DNA of 64,000 bases, from positions 372,001 through 436,000 of the forward strand of contig NZ_FOWE01000003.1 in NCBI RefSeq assembly GCF_900115395.1, written 5' to 3'. Each line of letters opens with the position of its first letter. Positions within the stretch are counted from its first letter, which is position 1. Below the pieces are notes generated by a model. The model was not told the origin of the DNA. It saw nothing but the letters and a program-made list of their open reading frames with translations, and ran no database searches. This DNA is from Geodermatophilus obscurus (GTDB taxonomy: Bacteria > Actinomycetota > Actinomycetes > Mycobacteriales > Geodermatophilaceae). This document shows positions 18,507 to 25,672 of the stretch, piece by piece. The translations under genes were made by a program, and so were the position numbers.

Positions 18507-19271
18507 TCAGCGCGGGCCGGTGGGGACCGCGGACGCCGGGTGGGCCGAGGAGGACGGGTGCGCGGTGAAGGAGGGCGCGAGGGACCACGCGGCCGGCACC
18601 GCCGAGGGCACCGGGCCGCCGACCGGACCGAGGTCGAGCACCATGCGGGTCGGCTGGAAGGCCTCCGCGTACCCGATGCGGGCCTGCGCACCCCAGTGCC
18701 GGGCGGAGGCGACGATCGCGTCGGGCTCGACCATCGCCGACCGCTCCACCTGCGAGGCGTGGGCGGCGAGGGCGGCCAGCTTGCCGCTGAGGTGCGCCGT
18801 GACGTCCACGTAGACCGTCGGCGTGAAGGTCAGCGTCGAGGGGCTCTGGTAGTGCAGCACCCGGGGCAGGCGGCGGGCCGCGCCCAGGGTGGCCGCCGCG
18901 ACGGCGCGGTGGTCCTGGTGGCTGTCGTCGGGGGCGTGCACGTAGACGAGGTCGGCCGCCGTGGCCCGCAGCGCCTGCTCGATCCGGCGGATCGCCGCTG
19001 CGTCGGCCACGACCTCGCAGTCGCGCAGGCCGCCCCAGAGGAGGGTGGCGCCGAGGGTGGCGGCGGCCCGCTCCTGCTCGGCGCGGCGGCCGACCACCTG
19101 GGTGTCGTCGCCGGGGCCGTTCTCGCCGCCGGTCATCACGAGCACGGTCACCGTGTCACCGGCCGCGACGTGCGCCAGCAGGGCGCCGCCGCAGCCGAGC
19201 TCGACGTCGTCGGGGTGCGCCCCGATGGCGAGGACGCTGCGTCCCGTGCTCCGCGTGCCCGCGCCGTCCAT
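18507..19271 (-). CDS. PIG-L/LmbE family GlcNAc deacetylase-like protein
   Basis: The 254-residue protein carries the metal-binding motif AHPDDVELGCGG (residues 18-29) and the downstream HAPDDSHQDHRAV (about 111-123), together giving the HPDD and His ligands of PIG-L zinc deacetylases. Known members remove acetyl from GlcNAc in glycans, GPI precursors, mycothiol or bacillithiol intermediates. The C-terminal 30 residues are Ser/Pro/Ala-rich and look unstructured. Its position at the end of a surface-glycan block suggests it modifies that glycan, which is an inference. ATG 19271 is preferred to upstream options. A strong hairpin separates it from the next gene upstream. Confidence 0.85.
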   Translation of the reverse strand: MDGAGTRSTGRSVLAIGAHPDDVELGCGGALLAHVAAGDTVTVLVMTGGENGPGDDTQVVGRRAEQERAAATLGATLLWGGLRDCEVVADAAAIRRIEQALRATAADLVYVHAPDDSHQDHRAVAAATLGAARRLPRVLHYQSPSTLTFTPTVYVDVTAHLSGKLAALAAHASQVERSAMVEPDAIVASARHWGAQARIGYAEAFQPTRMVLDLGPVGGPVPSAVPAAWSLAPSFTAHPSSSAHPASAVPTGPR

Positions 19272-19351
19272 CGCCGCCGTCCCGTCTGTCCGGGGCGGTC
19301 CTCCCGCCCGATGCCTCTCCATCGGCGGCCGGAGCCGCCCCCTCCACCGCG

Positions 19352-19390
19352 ACGACCGGCACCTCCCCCGTCGGGGGGAGATCCGGTCGT
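19352..19390 (-). terminator. Strong hairpin after the secreted-protein gene
   Basis: ACGACCGG (19352-19359) pairs with CCGGTCGT (19383-19390), and inside it CTCCCCC pairs with GGGGGAG around a 4-nt loop. It starts 10 nt after the stop of the 19401-19949 gene on the minus strand. There is no U tract, as usual in actinobacteria. Confidence 0.65.
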
Positions 19391-19400
19391 GCACGATCGA

Positions 19401-19949
19401 TCAGCCCGCGGCCGCCGCGGCGACGGGCTGCGCGCCGCGCTCACGGCGCCGGCGTGCGACCCACGCCGAGCCGCCGGCGACCGTGCCGGAGGCCACCAGG
19501 ACGATGACCATCCCGAGGCCGTTGCCGTCGGCAGGCAGGGGAGTGGAGGACGGGCAGCGCGAGCTCGTGTCCCTGCGGGCGATGCCGTAGACCCCGAGGA
19601 CCTGCCACTGCACCTCCTTCACCGACGCGGGCACGCGGACGGTGAAGACGGCCTGCCGCGTCCCCGCCTCGAAGCGCGTGGTCTGCTGCCCGTCGAAGGA
19701 GTCGGGGACCATGTCGTTGTTCCTGCCCCGGGCCACCGAGAACGCCGACGACGTGGTGTTCGTGTAGCCGAACGCCGCCGTCCAGGAACCGTCCTGCACC
19801 GGGGTGACGCAGGTGACCAGCGGCTTGACCCAGCCGTAGTGGGCGCTCGCCGCACCCGGGGTCCCGAGGACCACCGCGAGCGCGATCGCGGCCACCACTC
19901 CCAGCCGCGTCCCGCGTGACGCCCGGCGCCGTCCCGTCCCGCCTGCCAT
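19401..19949 (-). CDS. Secreted Ig-like protein with C-terminal sorting tail, candidate exosortase substrate
   Basis: The 182-residue precursor has a Sec signal peptide with a basic start and hydrophobic core (about 17-31), and a likely cut after GAASA (residue 36). The mature part (CVTPVQDGSWTAAFGYTN, then EAGTRQAVFTVRV) resembles a beta-sandwich module seen in large bacterial surface proteins. The tail is tripartite: TPLPADGNG (136-144), a hydrophobic helix (145-165) and RRRRER, the layout of PEP-CTERM-like signals cut by exosortases; LPADG also faintly resembles a sortase motif. GGAGG 7-8 nt before ATG 19949 and flanking hairpins make it its own unit downstream of the exosortase operon. 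The target role is inferred. Confidence 0.8.
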   Translation of the reverse strand: MAGGTGRRRASRGTRLGVVAAIALAVVLGTPGAASAHYGWVKPLVTCVTPVQDGSWTAAFGYTNTTSSAFSVARGRNNDMVPDSFDGQQTTRFEAGTRQAVFTVRVPASVKEVQWQVLGVYGIARRDTSSRCPSSTPLPADGNGLGMVIVLVASGTVAGGSAWVARRRRERGAQPVAAAAAG

Positions 19950-20031
19950 GTCGACGCCTCCCGATCGGGGCTCGCCCGGCCCCACCGGGAGGCCATCGGC
20001 CCGCGGCGGGCACGGGTGCAGGCGGTCTCCG

Positions 20032-20054
20032 GGCCCCTCACCCGGAGGAGGGGC
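20032..20054 (-). terminator. Hairpin terminator after the HAD gene
   Basis: GGCCCCTC (20032-20039) and GAGGGGCC (20047-20054) form an 8-bp perfect stem with a 7-nt loop, 10 nt beyond the stop of the HAD gene on the minus strand. It marks the end of the five-gene overlapping operon. Confidence 0.65.
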
Positions 20055-20063
20055 CGGGGCGGT

Positions 20064-20801
20064 TCAGCCCGCCGCCGGCACCGCTGCGCGGACGGCGGAC
20101 AGCGCCAGGACGGCGGCGGAGGGGAAGTCGCCGGCGACCGCCCAGGCGGCGGGGTCGTCGGGGGCGGCGGCGTACTCGCCCTGCCGCACGCGGATCGCCC
20201 GTGCGCCCACGGCGGCGGCGACGGCGACGTCCTTGCCCGGCCGGTCCCCGATGACGAGCACCCGGTCGGCGGGCACCCCGAGGCGGCCGGCCAGCACCCG
20301 CAGGCCCTCGGGGGACGGCTTGCGTGCCGCCCGGCCGCCGAGCGTGTCGGTGACCAGCACCTCGGTCAGGAGCGGCAGCAGGCCGGTCGCGGCGAGCTTG
20401 GCGGCCTGGATGGCGGGGTTGCCGTCGGTGAGGCAGCCGACGGGGACCACGTCGCCGAGGGCCGCCAGTGCCTCCGCGGCGCCCGGGTAGGGCGGGAGGG
20501 ACGACGGCGCGTGGGCGGTGAAGGCGGCCACCAGCGGCGGCACCAGCCCGGGCAGGTCCCCGGCCGGCACGCCGGCGGCCAGCAGCGCACGGTCGACGGT
20601 GCCGCCGCGGTCGGAGCCGGCCGCCAGCTCGCGGACGAGCGCGGCGTGCACGCGGGCGCCGTCCAGGCCCGCCTCGGTGGCGGCGAGACCGACGTCGGCC
20701 GCCGCGCCGGCCAGGTAGGCGGCCTGCGGGTACAGCGTGTCGTCGAGGTCGACCACCACCGCCAGCGGCGGCGGGCCGTCCCAGGGCGGCGCGCTCGTCA
20801 C
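20064..20801 (-). CDS. HAD-superfamily hydrolase
   Basis: The 245-residue phosphatase has motif I VVVDLDDTLYPQ (about residues 15-26), motif II GCLTDGNPA (about 122-130), the Lys of motif III in ARKPSPEG, and motif IV VLVIGDRPGKDV (about 186-197). It has a helical C1 cap between motifs I and II. This is the nucleotidase/phosphoglycolate-phosphatase-like group. Placement after an epimerase and an ATP-grasp enzyme suggests dephosphorylation of a sugar intermediate, an inference. The start GTG 20801 overlaps the epimerase stop by 4 nt. It is the last gene of the operon, followed by a hairpin. Confidence 0.85.
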   Translation of the reverse strand: MTSAPPWDGPPPLAVVVDLDDTLYPQAAYLAGAAADVGLAATEAGLDGARVHAALVRELAAGSDRGGTVDRALLAAGVPAGDLPGLVPPLVAAFTAHAPSSLPPYPGAAEALAALGDVVPVGCLTDGNPAIQAAKLAATGLLPLLTEVLVTDTLGGRAARKPSPEGLRVLAGRLGVPADRVLVIGDRPGKDVAVAAAVGARAIRVRQGEYAAAPDDPAAWAVAGDFPSAAVLALSAVRAAVPAAG

Positions 20802-21949
20802 CACGGCAGCCGGCCGTCGGTGAAGTCCGGCTCGTCGAGGGCCAGGAGCGCGTCGGTCGCCTCGTCGGCGAGCAGCGCGGCCACCCGGACACCGGTGGTG
20901 CCGTCGCCGTAGGGGCAGGGGAGGGCGGCCGCGCGGGCCTGTCCCTCCGCGCCGGTGTGGCGGACCGCGGCGGCGAGGACGGCGTCGGCGGCGGAGTCGT
21001 CGGCGAGACCGGCCAGGGTGGTGGTGCCGGCCTCGACGCCCTCCCACCGCGGGGTCGAGCCGCGCAGCACGACAACGGGCACCCCGAGGAACGCCGCCTC
21101 CTCCTGGATACCGCCGGAGTCGGTGACGGCGAGCCGCGCCGAGGCCAGGGCGGCCAGCAGGCTGTCGTAGCCGACCGGTCCGCTCAGGGTGATCGCCGGG
21201 TGGTCGAGCTCGCCACCCAGGCCGGTCGCGGCCAGCCGCGCGGCGGTGCGCGGGTGCACCGGGAAGGTCACCGGGCCGACGTCGTCGGCCAGCGCCCGGA
21301 CGATCCCCACCAGCCGCTTCAGCCGCACCGGGTCGTCGACGTTGGTCGGACGGTGCGCGGTCACCAGGACGCCGCGACGTTCGGCCACCGGGACCGGGCG
21401 CACGCCCCGGGCCACCAGGGTGTCGACCACCGGGTTGCCGACGACGAACACCCGCTCGGCCGGCACCCCCTCGGCGGCCAGGAACGCCGCGGCCCGGCGC
21501 GTGGGCGCCAGGTGCAGGGCGGCGACGGCCGCGGCGACCCGCCGGTTGACCTCCTCGACGCTGCGCGGGTTGAGGCTGCGCAGCCCGGCCTCCAGGTGCG
21601 CGAACGGCACCCCGGCGCCGCGCGCGGCCAGGGCGTACGCGGGGACGGTGTGGGTGTCCCCGAGCGCCAGGACGACGTCGGGCCGGAACCGGGCGACCGC
21701 GCGCGCCGCGTCGGCGTGCAGCGCGCCGTACCGCGCGGCCGGGTCGTCGGCCGGCAGCCCGAAGCGCCAGGTGGGTGCCAGTCCGAGGGTCTCCTGCAGG
21801 CGGGTGGAGAGGTCGGGATCGGTGTGCTGGCCGGTGTCGACGACGTCGACCCGGTGTCCCGCGGCGGTCAGCGCCCGCACCACCGGTGCCAGCTTCACGA
21901 CCTCGGGCCGGGTGCCGAAGGGCACCAGGACGTGCCGGGTGCGGGTCAC
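20798..21949 (-). CDS. wecB: UDP-N-acetylglucosamine 2-epimerase (non-hydrolysing)
   Basis: The 383-residue protein shows the GT-B-like epimerase pattern: PFGTRPEVVKLAPV at the N-terminus, VDTGQHTD, FAHLEAGLRS (about residue 112), VLVTAHRPTNVDD (about 211) and VTDSGGIQEEAAFLGVPVVVLR with RWEGVEAGT. It converts UDP-GlcNAc to UDP-ManNAc. In PRS..E the usual PEExNR becomes PRSVEEVNR, a small variation. ManNAc-containing surface polysaccharide is therefore likely. It sits between ATP-grasp and HAD genes with GTGA overlaps on both sides. Confidence 0.9.
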   Translation of the reverse strand: MTRTRHVLVPFGTRPEVVKLAPVVRALTAAGHRVDVVDTGQHTDPDLSTRLQETLGLAPTWRFGLPADDPAARYGALHADAARAVARFRPDVVLALGDTHTVPAYALAARGAGVPFAHLEAGLRSLNPRSVEEVNRRVAAAVAALHLAPTRRAAAFLAAEGVPAERVFVVGNPVVDTLVARGVRPVPVAERRGVLVTAHRPTNVDDPVRLKRLVGIVRALADDVGPVTFPVHPRTAARLAATGLGGELDHPAITLSGPVGYDSLLAALASARLAVTDSGGIQEEAAFLGVPVVVLRGSTPRWEGVEAGTTTLAGLADDSAADAVLAAAVRHTGAEGQARAAALPCPYGDGTTGVRVAALLADEATDALLALDEPDFTDGRLPW

Positions 21950-23013
21950 GACCGCACCGCCGTCGCGACGCAGGGGTCGGCCACCGGGCTGCCGTCCTCG
22001 CCGCTGTAGGTCTCGGCGAAGTAGCGGCTCATCCGGACCCCGGGCGTGAACCACAGGTGCGGCAGGCGGGTGCCCGGCTCGCGGATGCCGGTCAGGTGGG
22101 CGCTGACCACGTCGGCGCCGGCGGCGAGGGTCAGCGGCAGCCCGCCGGAGAAGCGCGGGTTGATCTCGACGACGGTCGCCCGGCCGTCGTCGGCGACGAA
22201 GCCCTGGACGTTGGCCGGGCCGGTGAGCCGCACCGCCTCGAGGGCGGCGGCCACGACCGCGGTGACCTCGGTGGAGTCGAAGGTGGTGCCCTTCACCGAG
22301 ATGCCGGCGCGGGTGTCGTCCCGCCAGCGCGGCACCACCGTGACCAGCTCGCCGTCGCGGCCCACCAGCGCGTCGGCGGTGAACTCGCGGCCCGACAACC
22401 GGGTCTGGGCCATGAGCGACGCGTCGGCACGCATCGCCCCGACGACCTCGGCCCGGGCGTCGAGTGCGCGCACGCCGCGGCTGCCCCGGCCGGAGCGGGG
22501 CTTGACCAGCCAGGGGCCGGGGACGGTGACGAGGCCGGCGGCGGTGTCGGTGGTCGCGGGGTGCGGCACGCCGGCGACGCGCATGGCGCGGGCGAAGGCC
22601 GCCTTGTCGCAGCAGACCTCGACGGCTTCCGGGTCGGGCAGCCAGGTGGCCACACCGGCCGCGGCGAGCCGGTCGGCACCCGCGGCGAGCGCGGGCAGCT
22701 CCTCGGCGACGGTGCCGATGAGCGCGTCGGCGCCGTGCGCTGTGGCCAGGGCCACGAGGGCGTCGACGAAGCGCACGTGGTCGGCGCGGGGGACGACGGC
22801 GCCGACGGTGGCCAGCGCCGCACCGGCGGCGGTCGCGTCGGCGTCCACCCCGACCACGCGGTGGCCCAGCGCCACCAGGCGGCGGACGACGGCGACCCCG
22901 GCCGGGCCGCCGGCGCCGGTGACGAGCACGGCGGGCCCCCCGGGACGCCCGTACCGATCGTCGGGGAGCGGGGGCACGGGTGCGGTGGGCCGGTTCGGCA
23001 GGGTCGAGGTCAC
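21946..23013 (-). CDS. ATP-grasp family ligase
   Basis: The 355-residue protein begins with a Rossmann-like pre-ATP-grasp domain (VLVTGAGGPAGVAVVRRL, about residues 29-46). A glycine-rich ATP-grasp loop follows (WLVKPRSGRGSRGV, about 174-187), and the metal-binding signature VVEINPRFSGG lies near residues 287-297. It resembles carbamoyl-phosphate-synthase-like, PylC-type ligases that join a carboxylate to an amine. Linked with an epimerase, a phosphatase and a glycosyltransferase, it may attach an amino acid to a sugar, but the substrate is unknown. Its GTG start overlaps the exosortase stop by 4 nt, so the two proteins are likely co-expressed. Confidence 0.85.
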   Translation of the reverse strand: MTSTLPNRPTAPVPPLPDDRYGRPGGPAVLVTGAGGPAGVAVVRRLVALGHRVVGVDADATAAGAALATVGAVVPRADHVRFVDALVALATAHGADALIGTVAEELPALAAGADRLAAAGVATWLPDPEAVEVCCDKAAFARAMRVAGVPHPATTDTAAGLVTVPGPWLVKPRSGRGSRGVRALDARAEVVGAMRADASLMAQTRLSGREFTADALVGRDGELVTVVPRWRDDTRAGISVKGTTFDSTEVTAVVAAALEAVRLTGPANVQGFVADDGRATVVEINPRFSGGLPLTLAAGADVVSAHLTGIREPGTRLPHLWFTPGVRMSRYFAETYSGEDGSPVADPCVATAVRS

Positions 23014-24254
23014 CGGGGCGTCTCCGGGGGCGGGGGAGGAGTGGACGGGCGGGCGAAGCTGTGGGGCGCGGTGGAACGCGAGGCGGAAGGACGTCGCGCC
23101 GGTGCGGTCCCGGGCGGCCGGGTGGCCCCGGGTGCCGGCGGCACCGGGATCCGGGCGACCGCCACCGCGGCGCCGTCGTCCCTCGAGCCGTCGCCCCCGG
23201 AGCCGTCGTCCCCGGAGCCGTCGTCGGAGCCGTCGCCCCCGACCGGACCGTGCGGGGTGGCCGGGGGAACCGGGCGGGCCAGCAGCCAGCCCCGCGCCCA
23301 CAGCCGCAGCGCGGTCACCCGGTGGTCGGTCACCGGCTCCCACTGCCGGGCGGCGACGGCGTCGGCGAGGGCGTCGAGGACGAGGGGGTCCACGTCGTAG
23401 GTGGCCACGGCGACCAGCGAGGCGCTGTGCGCGCCGAGGCCGTCGGCGGCGAGCTGGCGGACGCGCTCGGCCCGCCGGAGGGCCGGCAGGTGCCCGAGCC
23501 GGTAGTCCACGCGGGCGGCCTCCCGGCGGGCGGCCAGCCGGGCGGAGACCCGGCGCGGCAGGACGTGGCGGTGCAGCAGTCCGGTCACCGTCGTGCGGCG
23601 CCGGCGGACCGCGGCCTCCACCTCCTCGGTGGCGCGGTACCCCAGTCCCGGCCGGGCCCAGCTGTCGGGGCGGCGGGCGGTGTGCCGGCCGTCGACGTCC
23701 TGCTCGGCGCGCTCGGCGGCCGGGAGGGTCACCCAGACCATGACGAGGAAGCCGCCGAGGGTGGCGACCAGGTTCCACAGGGTGCCGACCCAGTCGTGGA
23801 AGAGGACCAGCGCCCCCTCGCCCCAGTGCAGGCCGGCCAGCGCGGACAGCAGCAGCCGGCCGTGGTTGAGCGCCACGACGGCGGCGACGGCGACCACCAG
23901 GCCGCCGAGCGCGTGCAGCTTGCGGCCACGCAGGATGACCGCCGTCAGGGCGACCAGGCCGAGGACCGACAGCACCGACGAGCACGATGCCGTCACGACC
24001 GCGTCGATGATCTCGTCGTCGCCGCGGAAGAGCAGCACGTGACCGGGCAGGACGCCGGAGGACCACGTGGGGTCGAGCCACCCGAGCACCAGGGCGACCG
24101 CGCGGGCCTCGAGCACCTGCAGAGGTCCCGAGAGGGTGGCGAAGCCGACGACGCAGATGACGGCGGCCAGCGCGAGGTCGAACAGGACCGGGAGCAGCCG
24201 CTGCGTCGTCCCCCGGGAGAGCCGTCGCCGGCCGACGGCGGGTGCGGTGGTCAC
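23010..24254 (-). CDS. Exosortase/archaeosortase-family transpeptidase with long cytosolic tail
   Basis: The 414-residue membrane protein has about six hydrophobic segments in residues 20-180. The transpeptidase triad of the family is visible: Cys91 in VTASCSSVLSV, Arg133 in ALNHGRLLLS and His153 in LVLFHDWVGTLW, with 42- and 20-residue gaps typical of exosortases. These enzymes cut PEP-CTERM-like tails of secreted proteins at the membrane. Residues about 185-414 form an Arg-rich cytosolic extension not found in basic exosortases, ending in an Asp/Gly/Ser repeat and a Pro-rich tail. The gene overlaps the GT2 gene upstream and the ATP-grasp gene downstream by 4 nt each. Confidence 0.78.
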   Translation of the reverse strand: MTTAPAVGRRRLSRGTTQRLLPVLFDLALAAVICVVGFATLSGPLQVLEARAVALVLGWLDPTWSSGVLPGHVLLFRGDDEIIDAVVTASCSSVLSVLGLVALTAVILRGRKLHALGGLVVAVAAVVALNHGRLLLSALAGLHWGEGALVLFHDWVGTLWNLVATLGGFLVMVWVTLPAAERAEQDVDGRHTARRPDSWARPGLGYRATEEVEAAVRRRRTTVTGLLHRHVLPRRVSARLAARREAARVDYRLGHLPALRRAERVRQLAADGLGAHSASLVAVATYDVDPLVLDALADAVAARQWEPVTDHRVTALRLWARGWLLARPVPPATPHGPVGGDGSDDGSGDDGSGGDGSRDDGAAVAVARIPVPPAPGATRPPGTAPARRPSASRSTAPHSFARPSTPPPPPETPR

Positions 24255-25672
24255 CGGTCCTCCTCCGGGGGGAGCGCGAACGACCGCGGCCGCGGATCGC
24301 TCCCCGTCGTGCCGGCCCCGACGGGTGCGGGCGCGGCCGAGCGCGGCACCGTGGACGTGGCACCCGAGCGCGACGTCTTCACCCAGCTGTAGGGACGGCC
24401 GAGCATCCCGTCGACGTAGGCGCGGGAGGTGATCCAGATCGACAGCGCGAAGGCGGGCAGGAAGCCCAGCAGCCGCCAGGCCGAGCGGCGCTCCACGCGG
24501 CCCACGAGCAGGCCGACGCACAGCTCGGCGAGCGGGCCGATGAACAGCAGCATCGACAGCGGCAGCAGGCCCACGACCGGCAGGTCACCGACGCCCAGGG
24601 CCCGCAGCACGGTGAGCAGCAGACCCAGGCCGCTGAGCACCGGCACGTGGTAGACGCCGAGGAACAGCGTCGTCTCGACCTTCTCCAGCAGCGACAGGTG
24701 CGGTGAGCGCATGAGCGGGCGCCAGTAGTCGCGCAGGCACTTCTGGTGGCCCCGGGCCCAGCGGTACCGCTGCTTCCAGAAGCGGTGCGCGCTGACCACC
24801 GCCTCCTCGAAGTCGATGGCCGACACGTCGTAGCGCACCCGCTGGCCCATCAGCAGGATGCGCAGGGTCAGGTCGGTGTCCTCGGTGACCGTCTCGGGGT
24901 TCCAGCCGCCGAGCGCGCGCAGCGTCGAGGTCCGCACGGCGCAGTTGGCGCCGCCGTAGGCGGGCAGCTCGAAGAGCGCCTGTCGGCCGTACTCGTTGAC
25001 GAGGTAGCCGGAGAGGTAGTCGACGAAGACGGTGTTGGCCATGGTGCTGTCCTGGCCGTTGCGGATGACGCAGCGGCCCATGACCGCACCGACGACCGGG
25101 TCGCGGAAGTGCCGCACCAGCCGGCGCAGCGCGGTCGGCTCGGGCTCGTGGTCGGCGTCGAAGACCAGCACGACCTCGGCGTCGACGAGGGCCAGCGCCT
25201 CGTTCAGGGCACCCGACTTGCCCCCTCCGGCGCCCGGCGGCCGGTGCAGCACGCGCAGCCGGGGGTCGCGGACCGACCAGGCGTCGAGCTTGGCGCCGGT
25301 CGCGTCGGCCGAGCCGTCGTCGACGACGACGAGGGTGAGCCGGTCGGAGGGGTAGTCCAGCGCCAGCAGCGCCGCGACCATGCCGTCGACGACGAGCTCC
25401 TCGTCCTTGCACCCGACGAGGACGGCGACCGTGGGGGTGTAGCTGTCCAGCCCGACGTCGGCGGCCAGCAGGTCCCGCTCGGCCCAGCGCGCCGCGGCGA
25501 CGGCGAAGGCCAGGTGCCGGCAGAAGTAGACGCCGAAGACGACGTTGAGCGCGCCGGCGACGACGCCGAGGGTGGGGCCGACGCCGAAGAGCGCGAGCGC
25601 GGCACCGAGGACGAGGACGTAGGCGACGAGGACCAGCGGACGGCCCTCGGGACGGTCGGTGCCGGATGCCAC
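24251..25672 (-). CDS. Membrane-bound GT2 glycosyltransferase (cellulose/hyaluronan-synthase-like)
   Basis: The 473-residue processive-type glycosyltransferase has two N-terminal membrane helices (about 13-55). The GT-A domain has VAVLVGCKDEE, the DDG motif LVVVDDGSADATG, the DxD-type FDADHEP, the acceptor TED in ETVTEDTDL and the QRYRW motif (KQRYRWARG). Three or four C-terminal helices follow. It should polymerise or transfer a UDP-sugar while moving the product across the membrane; GlcNAc/ManNAc are plausible given the downstream epimerase. GTG 25672 has AGGAGGG 5 nt upstream, the strongest ribosome site of the operon, as expected for its first gene. Confidence 0.9.
   Translation of the reverse strand: MASGTDRPEGRPLVLVAYVLVLGAALALFGVGPTLGVVAGALNVVFGVYFCRHLAFAVAAARWAERDLLAADVGLDSYTPTVAVLVGCKDEELVVDGMVAALLALDYPSDRLTLVVVDDGSADATGAKLDAWSVRDPRLRVLHRPPGAGGGKSGALNEALALVDAEVVLVFDADHEPEPTALRRLVRHFRDPVVGAVMGRCVIRNGQDSTMANTVFVDYLSGYLVNEYGRQALFELPAYGGANCAVRTSTLRALGGWNPETVTEDTDLTLRILLMGQRVRYDVSAIDFEEAVVSAHRFWKQRYRWARGHQKCLRDYWRPLMRSPHLSLLEKVETTLFLGVYHVPVLSGLGLLLTVLRALGVGDLPVVGLLPLSMLLFIGPLAELCVGLLVGRVERRSAWRLLGFLPAFALSIWITSRAYVDGMLGRPYSWVKTSRSGATSTVPRSAAPAPVGAGTTGSDPRPRSFALPPEEDR

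Follow-up and report, generated by a model that had tools for sequence, protein, structure and literature searches.

The stretch analysed here, called the window, comprises 64,000 nucleotides of Geodermatophilus obscurus (assembly GCF_900115395.1, contig NZ_FOWE01000003.1, positions 372,001 to 436,000) and carries, on the minus strand between positions 18507 and 25672, a seven-gene cassette in which an exosortase-family enzyme lies beside a secreted protein with a candidate sorting signal and a set of sugar and ligase genes. The cassette begins with a membrane glycosyltransferase of family 2 (GT2) of the PgaC/NodC/cellulose-synthase type (24251..25672; family matches and hydropathy), followed by the exosortase-family protein of 414 amino acids (23010..24254; TIGR04178 and catalytic triad), an ATP-grasp ligase resembling PylC and carbamoyl-phosphate synthase (21946..23013; family searches and a solved relative), a non-hydrolysing UDP-N-acetylglucosamine (UDP-GlcNAc) 2-epimerase of the WecB/WbpI family (20798..21949; wecB model and solved relatives), and a HAD phosphatase (20064..20801; family searches). 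Four 4-nt GTGA overlaps join these five genes between 25672 and 20064. Downstream of them lie the gene of a 182-amino-acid secreted tail protein, the candidate exosortase substrate (19401..19949; profile, predicted structure, and hydropathy), and then that of a PIG-L de-N-acetylase (18507..19271; family searches, solved relatives, and hydropathy). The first-pass annotation of the window had described this GTGA-joined run with its two downstream genes; the layout is confirmed, and family searches against NCBIfam and Pfam agree with its identities.

The 414-residue protein passes the general exosortase/archaeosortase hidden Markov model TIGR04178 with 29.6 bits against a cut-off of 23 (32.9 bits in the genome search). 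The nearest named model is XrtS, which it misses (42.9 of 145 bits), as it does XrtR (21.5 of 150), ArtC (13.9 of 100), and XrtM (11.9 of 125); XrtP and XrtG are absent among the five NCBIfam families listed for it up to E 1. The triad noted from the window sequence holds in the homologues: C91 (the predicted nucleophile; codon 23982..23984), N130, R133 of the NxxR motif (23856..23858), H153 of the HxxxG motif (23796..23798), and G157 are kept in 57/57 aligned exosortases, the window's included, all three codons lying on the minus strand. By sequence comparison, the window exosortase is a new branch of the family, apart from the named subfamilies. A hydropathy scan places hydrophobic segments at residues 90-108, 113-136, and 155-180, and the triad residues are located near one membrane face, presumably the outer side. 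The architecture consists of a membrane domain (residues ~1-180), a juxtamembrane box RAEQD..GRHTARRP..WARPGLGYR (residues 182-207; 23634..23711, minus strand), a helical, probably HEAT-like domain (~223-326; 23277..23588, minus strand), and a variable Gly/Pro-rich end. Few parts of the exosortase are as conserved as this box, which has 19 of its 26 positions invariant over 36 sequences and is recognisable in 11 sequences from Micromonosporaceae and metagenome bins; in the predicted structure, it is modelled at low confidence (block means 37-48). The window's own helical segment has no Pfam match. Four relatives (L047, L052, L054, and L061) show an exosortase frame without a stop, open through approximately 1 kb of the ATP-grasp gene, which may be a sequencing error or a genuine quirk of the variable C-terminal end.

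The tail protein is composed of a signal-peptide-like start, an immunoglobulin-like (Ig-like) domain at residues 40-126, the motif LPADGNG (residues 138-144; 19518..19538, minus strand), a helix at 146-171, and an Arg cluster, and its predicted structure shows a signal helix, a beta-sandwich over 40-126 at high confidence, the motif stretch at low confidence, and the same C-terminal helix. This is the layout of PEP-CTERM-type substrates, with a signal peptide and a C-terminal motif, hydrophobic helix, and basic cluster. Neither NCBIfam (at E 1) nor Pfam (above cut-off) has a family that matches the protein. Its relatives are 28-79% identical to the window's copy in local alignments, and an alignment of 32 sequences shows two invariant cysteines, the first within the opening strand of the domain and the second seven residues before the motif Pro. 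Among 57 tail proteins, 55 (window included) have [LMV]Pxx[GA]NG followed by a hydrophobic helix and Arg, a pattern that fixes Pro, Asn, and the last Gly by definition; its first position is L in 40, M in 14, and V in one, and its fourth is Asp or Glu in 42 of the 55. Thr occupies the fourth position in only one of them; the window has Asp there, so that its motif is not an LPXTG, while in L056 the motif reads a perfect LPATG. Pro-Glu-Pro occurs in none of the 55. The exceptions are L062, which reads GNS and whose genome has a second tail copy matching both the full-length and the tail-only profiles described below, and L128, which has no motif. The set of 57 leaves out the broken L044 copy of 66 amino acids (G041 also has an intact copy) and adjacent second copies in several genomes. 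A second tail protein, with MPADGNG, was seen in the window's genome on the plus strand (G000:C15:352369-352896; L139), ~19 kb before the window's first base. Tail copies remote from the cassette retain the motif both in this genome and in several relatives (L140, L141, L142, L146, and L148).

The pairing of signal and enzyme was examined in 112 Geodermatophilaceae genomes, of which 36, including the window's, carry the present exosortase type and 76 do not. The full-length tail profile matches 37/112 genomes, namely, the 36 carriers and one further genome, G096, with a weak partial match. A tail-only profile of the 48 positions of the C-terminal tail gives 56 strong matches (E 2.3e-8 or better), which fall exactly in the 36 carriers at 1-3 per genome and in 0/76 of the others; at E 0.01, it reaches 59/112 genomes, the weaker matches (E 4e-4 or worse) covering mostly the hydrophobic part only. 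Since all 56 strong matches lie, as compared by eye, within full-length-profile matches, the exosortase system seems dedicated to one protein family. Sortases are found in 112/112 of these genomes (four matches in the window's own), and the tail-signal pattern therefore tracks the exosortase. The first-pass annotation had proposed co-occurrence across the Geodermatophilaceae as a check and wide occurrence of the tail protein without the exosortase as the danger; the tail protein accompanies the exosortase in 36/36 carriers, and no such occurrence was found except for the weak partial match in G096. As far as genome comparison reaches, the pairing of sorting signal and exosortase is well supported.

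TIGR04178 was matched in 41 of the 112 genomes, 36 with the present type and five with only an XrtP-like type; both types occur in two genomes, G076 and G077. The window and 35/35 related carrier genomes each have the full set of seven genes, and the short overlaps of the five-gene core are retained in most of these relatives. The tail gene lies within the same 20-kb locus in 32/35; contig ends split the cassette in G108 and G002, and G055 has its tail gene on a different contig from the cassette. Beyond the family, a scan of named genomes provided 45 loci, of which 13 (L116-L128) were examined for all seven. Among 12 loci from Micromonosporaceae and metagenome bins, 11 have the full set, rearranged to run tail, PIG-L, GT2, exosortase, ATP-grasp, epimerase, and HAD, the Micromonosporaceae part being eight isolates of Micromonospora, Spirilliplanes, Actinoplanes, and Pilimelia. 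The thirteenth locus (L127), an uncultured Blastococcus ending at a contig edge with four genes visible, stands outside that count. In a phylum sample, 4/396 genomes were matched, the window's own included and G277 only in the C-terminal domain, with exosortases of the present kind in 3/396. The earlier description of a self-contained system is supported by the joint conservation of the seven genes and by the cassette epimerase being the only wecB match in the genome. The further proposals of that annotation, a ManNAc/GlcNAc-type glycan, release or attachment of the surface protein, and an amino-acid bridge from the ATP-grasp enzyme, are predictions with a close published parallel in type IX secretion (PMC7468200).

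The same annotation had placed the cassette within a tad pilus locus, and its position between tadC and an Flp-like pilin gene is confirmed in the window and in 5/35 relatives, the locus being no more than a landing site for one sub-lineage. In 7/7 fetched relatives, the tad locus is closed, with the aligned tadC and Flp parts 0.15-0.91 kb apart, and three genomes with a closed locus (G040, G048, and G061) carry the cassette elsewhere; a functional link to the pilus was rejected. The nearest two empty sites, L167 and L168, showed no cassette remnant. The same helicase gene neighbours the cassette in L035 and L039, where tadC was not found adjoining.

The GT2 has hydrophobic segments at both ends and the stretches DDGS, DADH, TEDTD, and QRYRW, which we take to be catalytic; it is of the poly-GlcNAc, chitin, and cellulose synthase kind. 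It is related to the glycosyltransferase families curated as partners of XrtG and XrtP but falls under their cut-offs; against the XrtP-associated family NF053846, it reaches 91.9 of 520 bits, homologous and yet a separate family. The epimerase passes the WecB model TIGR00236 with 225.7 bits against 210.15. Among proteins of solved structure, its best matches are UDP-diacetamido-glucuronate 2-epimerases of the WbpI type, followed closely by UDP-GlcNAc epimerases. The relatives of known structure of the PIG-L protein include diacetylchitobiose and GlcNAc-malate deacetylases, its nearest named model is BshB1 (95.9 bits, below the cut-off of 182.5), and it has no hydrophobic segment in the hydropathy scan and is taken as cytosolic. 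The ATP-grasp enzyme has a single relative of solved structure (E 0.001), whose name says no more than carbamoyl-phosphate-synthase-like protein. Proteins read from their sequence as GGDEF-EAL-like were seen near the cassette (L117:15340-17340), with matches in L052, L054, L057, L058, L062, L064, and L068, and may hint at cyclic-di-GMP control of the GT2.

Two further groups of exosortase loci were encountered. The second, XrtP-like type (L034, L036, L037, L038, L041, L042, and L043) was set apart as a different system, only the GT2 and, in 6/7, the epimerase matching the cassette queries (27-41% identity). One of these loci, L041:6128-11523, comprises an XrtP-like exosortase, a GT2, a choice-of-anchor P protein with a PLSGW-type tail, a 2-epimerase, and a weakly GGDEF-like neighbour; because its exosortase, nearest to XrtP, reaches only 62.2 bits against a cut-off of 200, it may be a branch of its own. 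The other group consists of distant cassettes, L152 (G341) and L153 (G300), whose exosortase has neither the C-terminal domain nor the RAEQD box; in L152, the helical domain stands alone as a membrane-anchored protein, and in L153, it and the ATP-grasp enzyme occupy a single open frame, a link that counts in favour of the reading proposed below. In L152, a 753-amino-acid secreted protein with a hydrophobic, basic C-terminus adjoins the PIG-L gene.

Exosortases have been proposed to work like sortases (PMC1569441). The PEP-CTERM/exosortase systems (EpsH, XrtA) of Gram-negative bacteria resemble the present one in their multi-pass enzyme with an invariant Cys, NxxR, and HxxxG, in the sugar genes nearby, and in substrates having a signal peptide and a C-terminal motif, helix, and basic cluster, as the cited passages describe them (PMC1569441). 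They differ in the PEP motif, in place of which LPxxGNG is found here, and the helical domain and RAEQD box are extra to the present enzyme. Moreover, the PEP-CTERM bacteria of the 2006 study all possessed an outer membrane, whereas the present host is Gram-positive and without one, and the median of eight diverse substrate proteins per genome given there contrasts with one family and 1-3 strong matches here (PMC1569441). Among Gram-positive systems, the actinobacterial XrtP/choice-of-anchor P system (NF012139, NF053846, and NF040603), on which no paper was found, likewise groups a GT2 with an exosortase and a tailed protein, a 2-epimerase being close by in L041, and a choice-of-anchor P protein also adjoins the L153 cassette, which is of the present kind; however, it has a separate exosortase branch (100/100 support) and another substrate family and motif, and the XrtP model is unlisted for the window protein. 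The XrtG system of lactobacilli (TIGR03110 and TIGR03111) has an exosortase, one CTERM protein, and two XrtG-associated glycosyltransferases, while epimerase, ATP-grasp, and PIG-L are unnamed in the passage on XrtG (PMC12854382), and the XrtG model is unlisted for the window protein. Archaeosortase A of Haloferax belongs to the same superfamily, and its acceptor-pathway genes were found by synteny with the archaeosortase; it differs in its PGF motif and in a lipid acceptor, being dependent on PssA and PssD, which are thought to make archaetidylethanolamine, according to the cited part of that work (PMC7157517).

A close chemical parallel is offered by type IX secretion, in which an amide bond links the C-termini of cargo proteins to an amino sugar bearing a 2-N-seryl or 2-N-glycyl group (PMC7468200). 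As set out in the cited passages, this linking sugar is made with a putative deacetylase, which presumably bares the amine, and an amino-acid transferase, a WbpI-type epimerase being predicted, untested, for the same Wbp/Vim pathway; its authors suggest that exosortase acceptors are perhaps amino-acid-modified sugars too (PMC7468200). The setting differs, being a Gram-negative outer membrane (PMC7468200). The present cassette is read as a Gram-positive counterpart because PIG-L, ATP-grasp, and WbpI/WecB-type 2-epimerase genes adjoin the exosortase. In type IX systems, the deacetylase is of carbohydrate esterase family 4 rather than PIG-L, the amino-acid enzyme is N-acyltransferase-like rather than ATP-grasp, and the sorting enzyme is unrelated.

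Family membership, triad, signal-enzyme pairing, and shared gene set are established by comparison across genomes; for topology, cleavage, cut site, transfer rather than release, and acceptor chemistry, we infer the following course. The tail protein would be exported by Sec and held by its C-terminal helix with the motif outside, where Cys91, aided by Arg133 and His153 on the outer face, would attack within LPxxGNG. Sortases cut at LPXT-G, and the cut here would most likely be sortase-like, immediately before the conserved Gly. The Ig-like domain would then be handed to a primary amine. To provide it, the epimerase would yield UDP-N-acetylmannosamine or a relative, the membrane GT2 would build the hexosamine into a glycan, PIG-L would strip the N-acetyl group and expose the amine, the ATP-grasp enzyme would cap this amine with an amino acid or short peptide, and the HAD enzyme would take off a phosphate; the end product would be a small surface protein whose C-terminus is joined to an amino-sugar glycan. 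That the tail protein is the substrate of the exosortase is very probable, and for its transfer to the product of the cassette, that is, the whole reading up to and including this step, the chances are about even. An aminoacylated hexosamine as acceptor is suggested by analogy and put forward tentatively. Slightly more doubtful still is full convergence with the type IX sortase through largely unrelated enzymes, in which a Cys intramembrane transpeptidase would amide-join the protein C-terminus to an amino-acid-capped, de-N-acetylated mannosamine or glucosamine, with signal, exosortase, and acceptor pathway forming one seven-gene unit.

Several observations weigh against this course. The substrates of the ATP-grasp, HAD, and PIG-L enzymes are, like the course as a whole, predictions. 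The family genomes are related, so that the contrast of 36 with 76 does not represent 36 independent events. In G096, a genome without the exosortase whose assembly is 67% complete, the tail profile gives a weak partial match (E 9.8e-4, over profile residues 8-61) that was not recovered at E 0.01 among the L151 reading frames and whose tail-only match spans positions 20-46, with the motif outside it; it was not counted as a true tail protein and is still the sole result against perfect pairing. Outside the family, the twelfth locus, L128, has six genes and a weak tail-like protein without the motif, and the stretches retrieved for L152 and L153 yielded no member of the tail family although they contain the same biosynthetic genes, a choice-of-anchor P protein lying close to the L153 cassette. 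The window exosortase has no Pfam match, PF09721 (Exosortase_EpsH) included; the distant relative L153 passes that model (39.6 against 25.7 bits) and L152 is just below (25.3), and we read PF09721 as covering the EpsH branch only and the NCBIfam signature model as covering the wider exosortase family. The epimerase may supply wall polymers unconnected with the exosortase. Lastly, the likeness to type IX lies in the logic and not in homology, because the seven window proteins, to which that search was confined, match none of the WbpA, WbpB, WbpD, WbpE, VimE, and VimA-type families.

The strongest competing explanation is that the exosortase only cuts and that the released Ig-like domain binds noncovalently to a separate exopolysaccharide made by the sugar genes. 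PEP-CTERM proteins are described, in the cited part of one account, as stabilising the contact between exopolysaccharide and cell surface (PMC12188702), the GT2 is of the polysaccharide-synthase type, and transfer is here a prediction. However, the ATP-grasp and PIG-L genes in 35/35 carrier relatives would hardly be needed by a plain exopolysaccharide, and the relatives or analogues of known chemistry, archaeosortase A and the type IX sortase, join the new C-terminus to an acceptor (PMC7157517; PMC7468200); release alone is considered unlikely, at roughly half the weight given to transfer. Considerably less probable is that the product of the cassette is a wall polymer or a small glycoside and that exosortase and tail protein lie side by side with unrelated tasks. 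In bacillithiol and mycothiol synthesis, GlcNAc conjugates are deacetylated by PIG-L enzymes, and the named model nearest to the window's PIG-L is BshB1, though under its cut-off; against this, the seven genes stay together in every family carrier and, rearranged, in 11/12 outside loci. Least probable of all is that the tail protein is an ordinary LPxTG-like sortase substrate while the exosortase acts on something else, since, despite the resemblance to LPXTG, the LPATG of L056, and the four sortase matches in the genome, Thr at the fourth position is confined to 1/55 motifs, the conserved block extends to NG, strong tail matches are restricted to the 36 exosortase carriers in a family where every genome has sortases, and the tail gene keeps to the cassette's locus in all relatives but the two contig-end splits and G055.

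Gram-positive exosortases are already known, namely, XrtG of lactobacilli, described in the passage cited above (PMC12854382), and XrtP from curated models. What is new here is the exosortase branch with its sorting signal, a substrate family dedicated to it, and the candidate acceptor genes that its carriers share; among the papers listed by literature searches, whose coverage left out most subscription journals, there was none on the present system or on Geodermatophilus with an exosortase. The exosortase acceptor is called an unidentified compound in the cited discussion of type IX secretion (PMC7468200). In the present system, named Gram-positive isolates combine the enzyme with a signal, a single substrate family, and a small group of genes that are candidates for making the acceptor, and enzyme, cut site, and acceptor can thereby be tested by single-gene deletion and by weighing one small protein. 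If a type IX-like amino-sugar linkage proved true, this would be the first exosortase acceptor readable from its genes.

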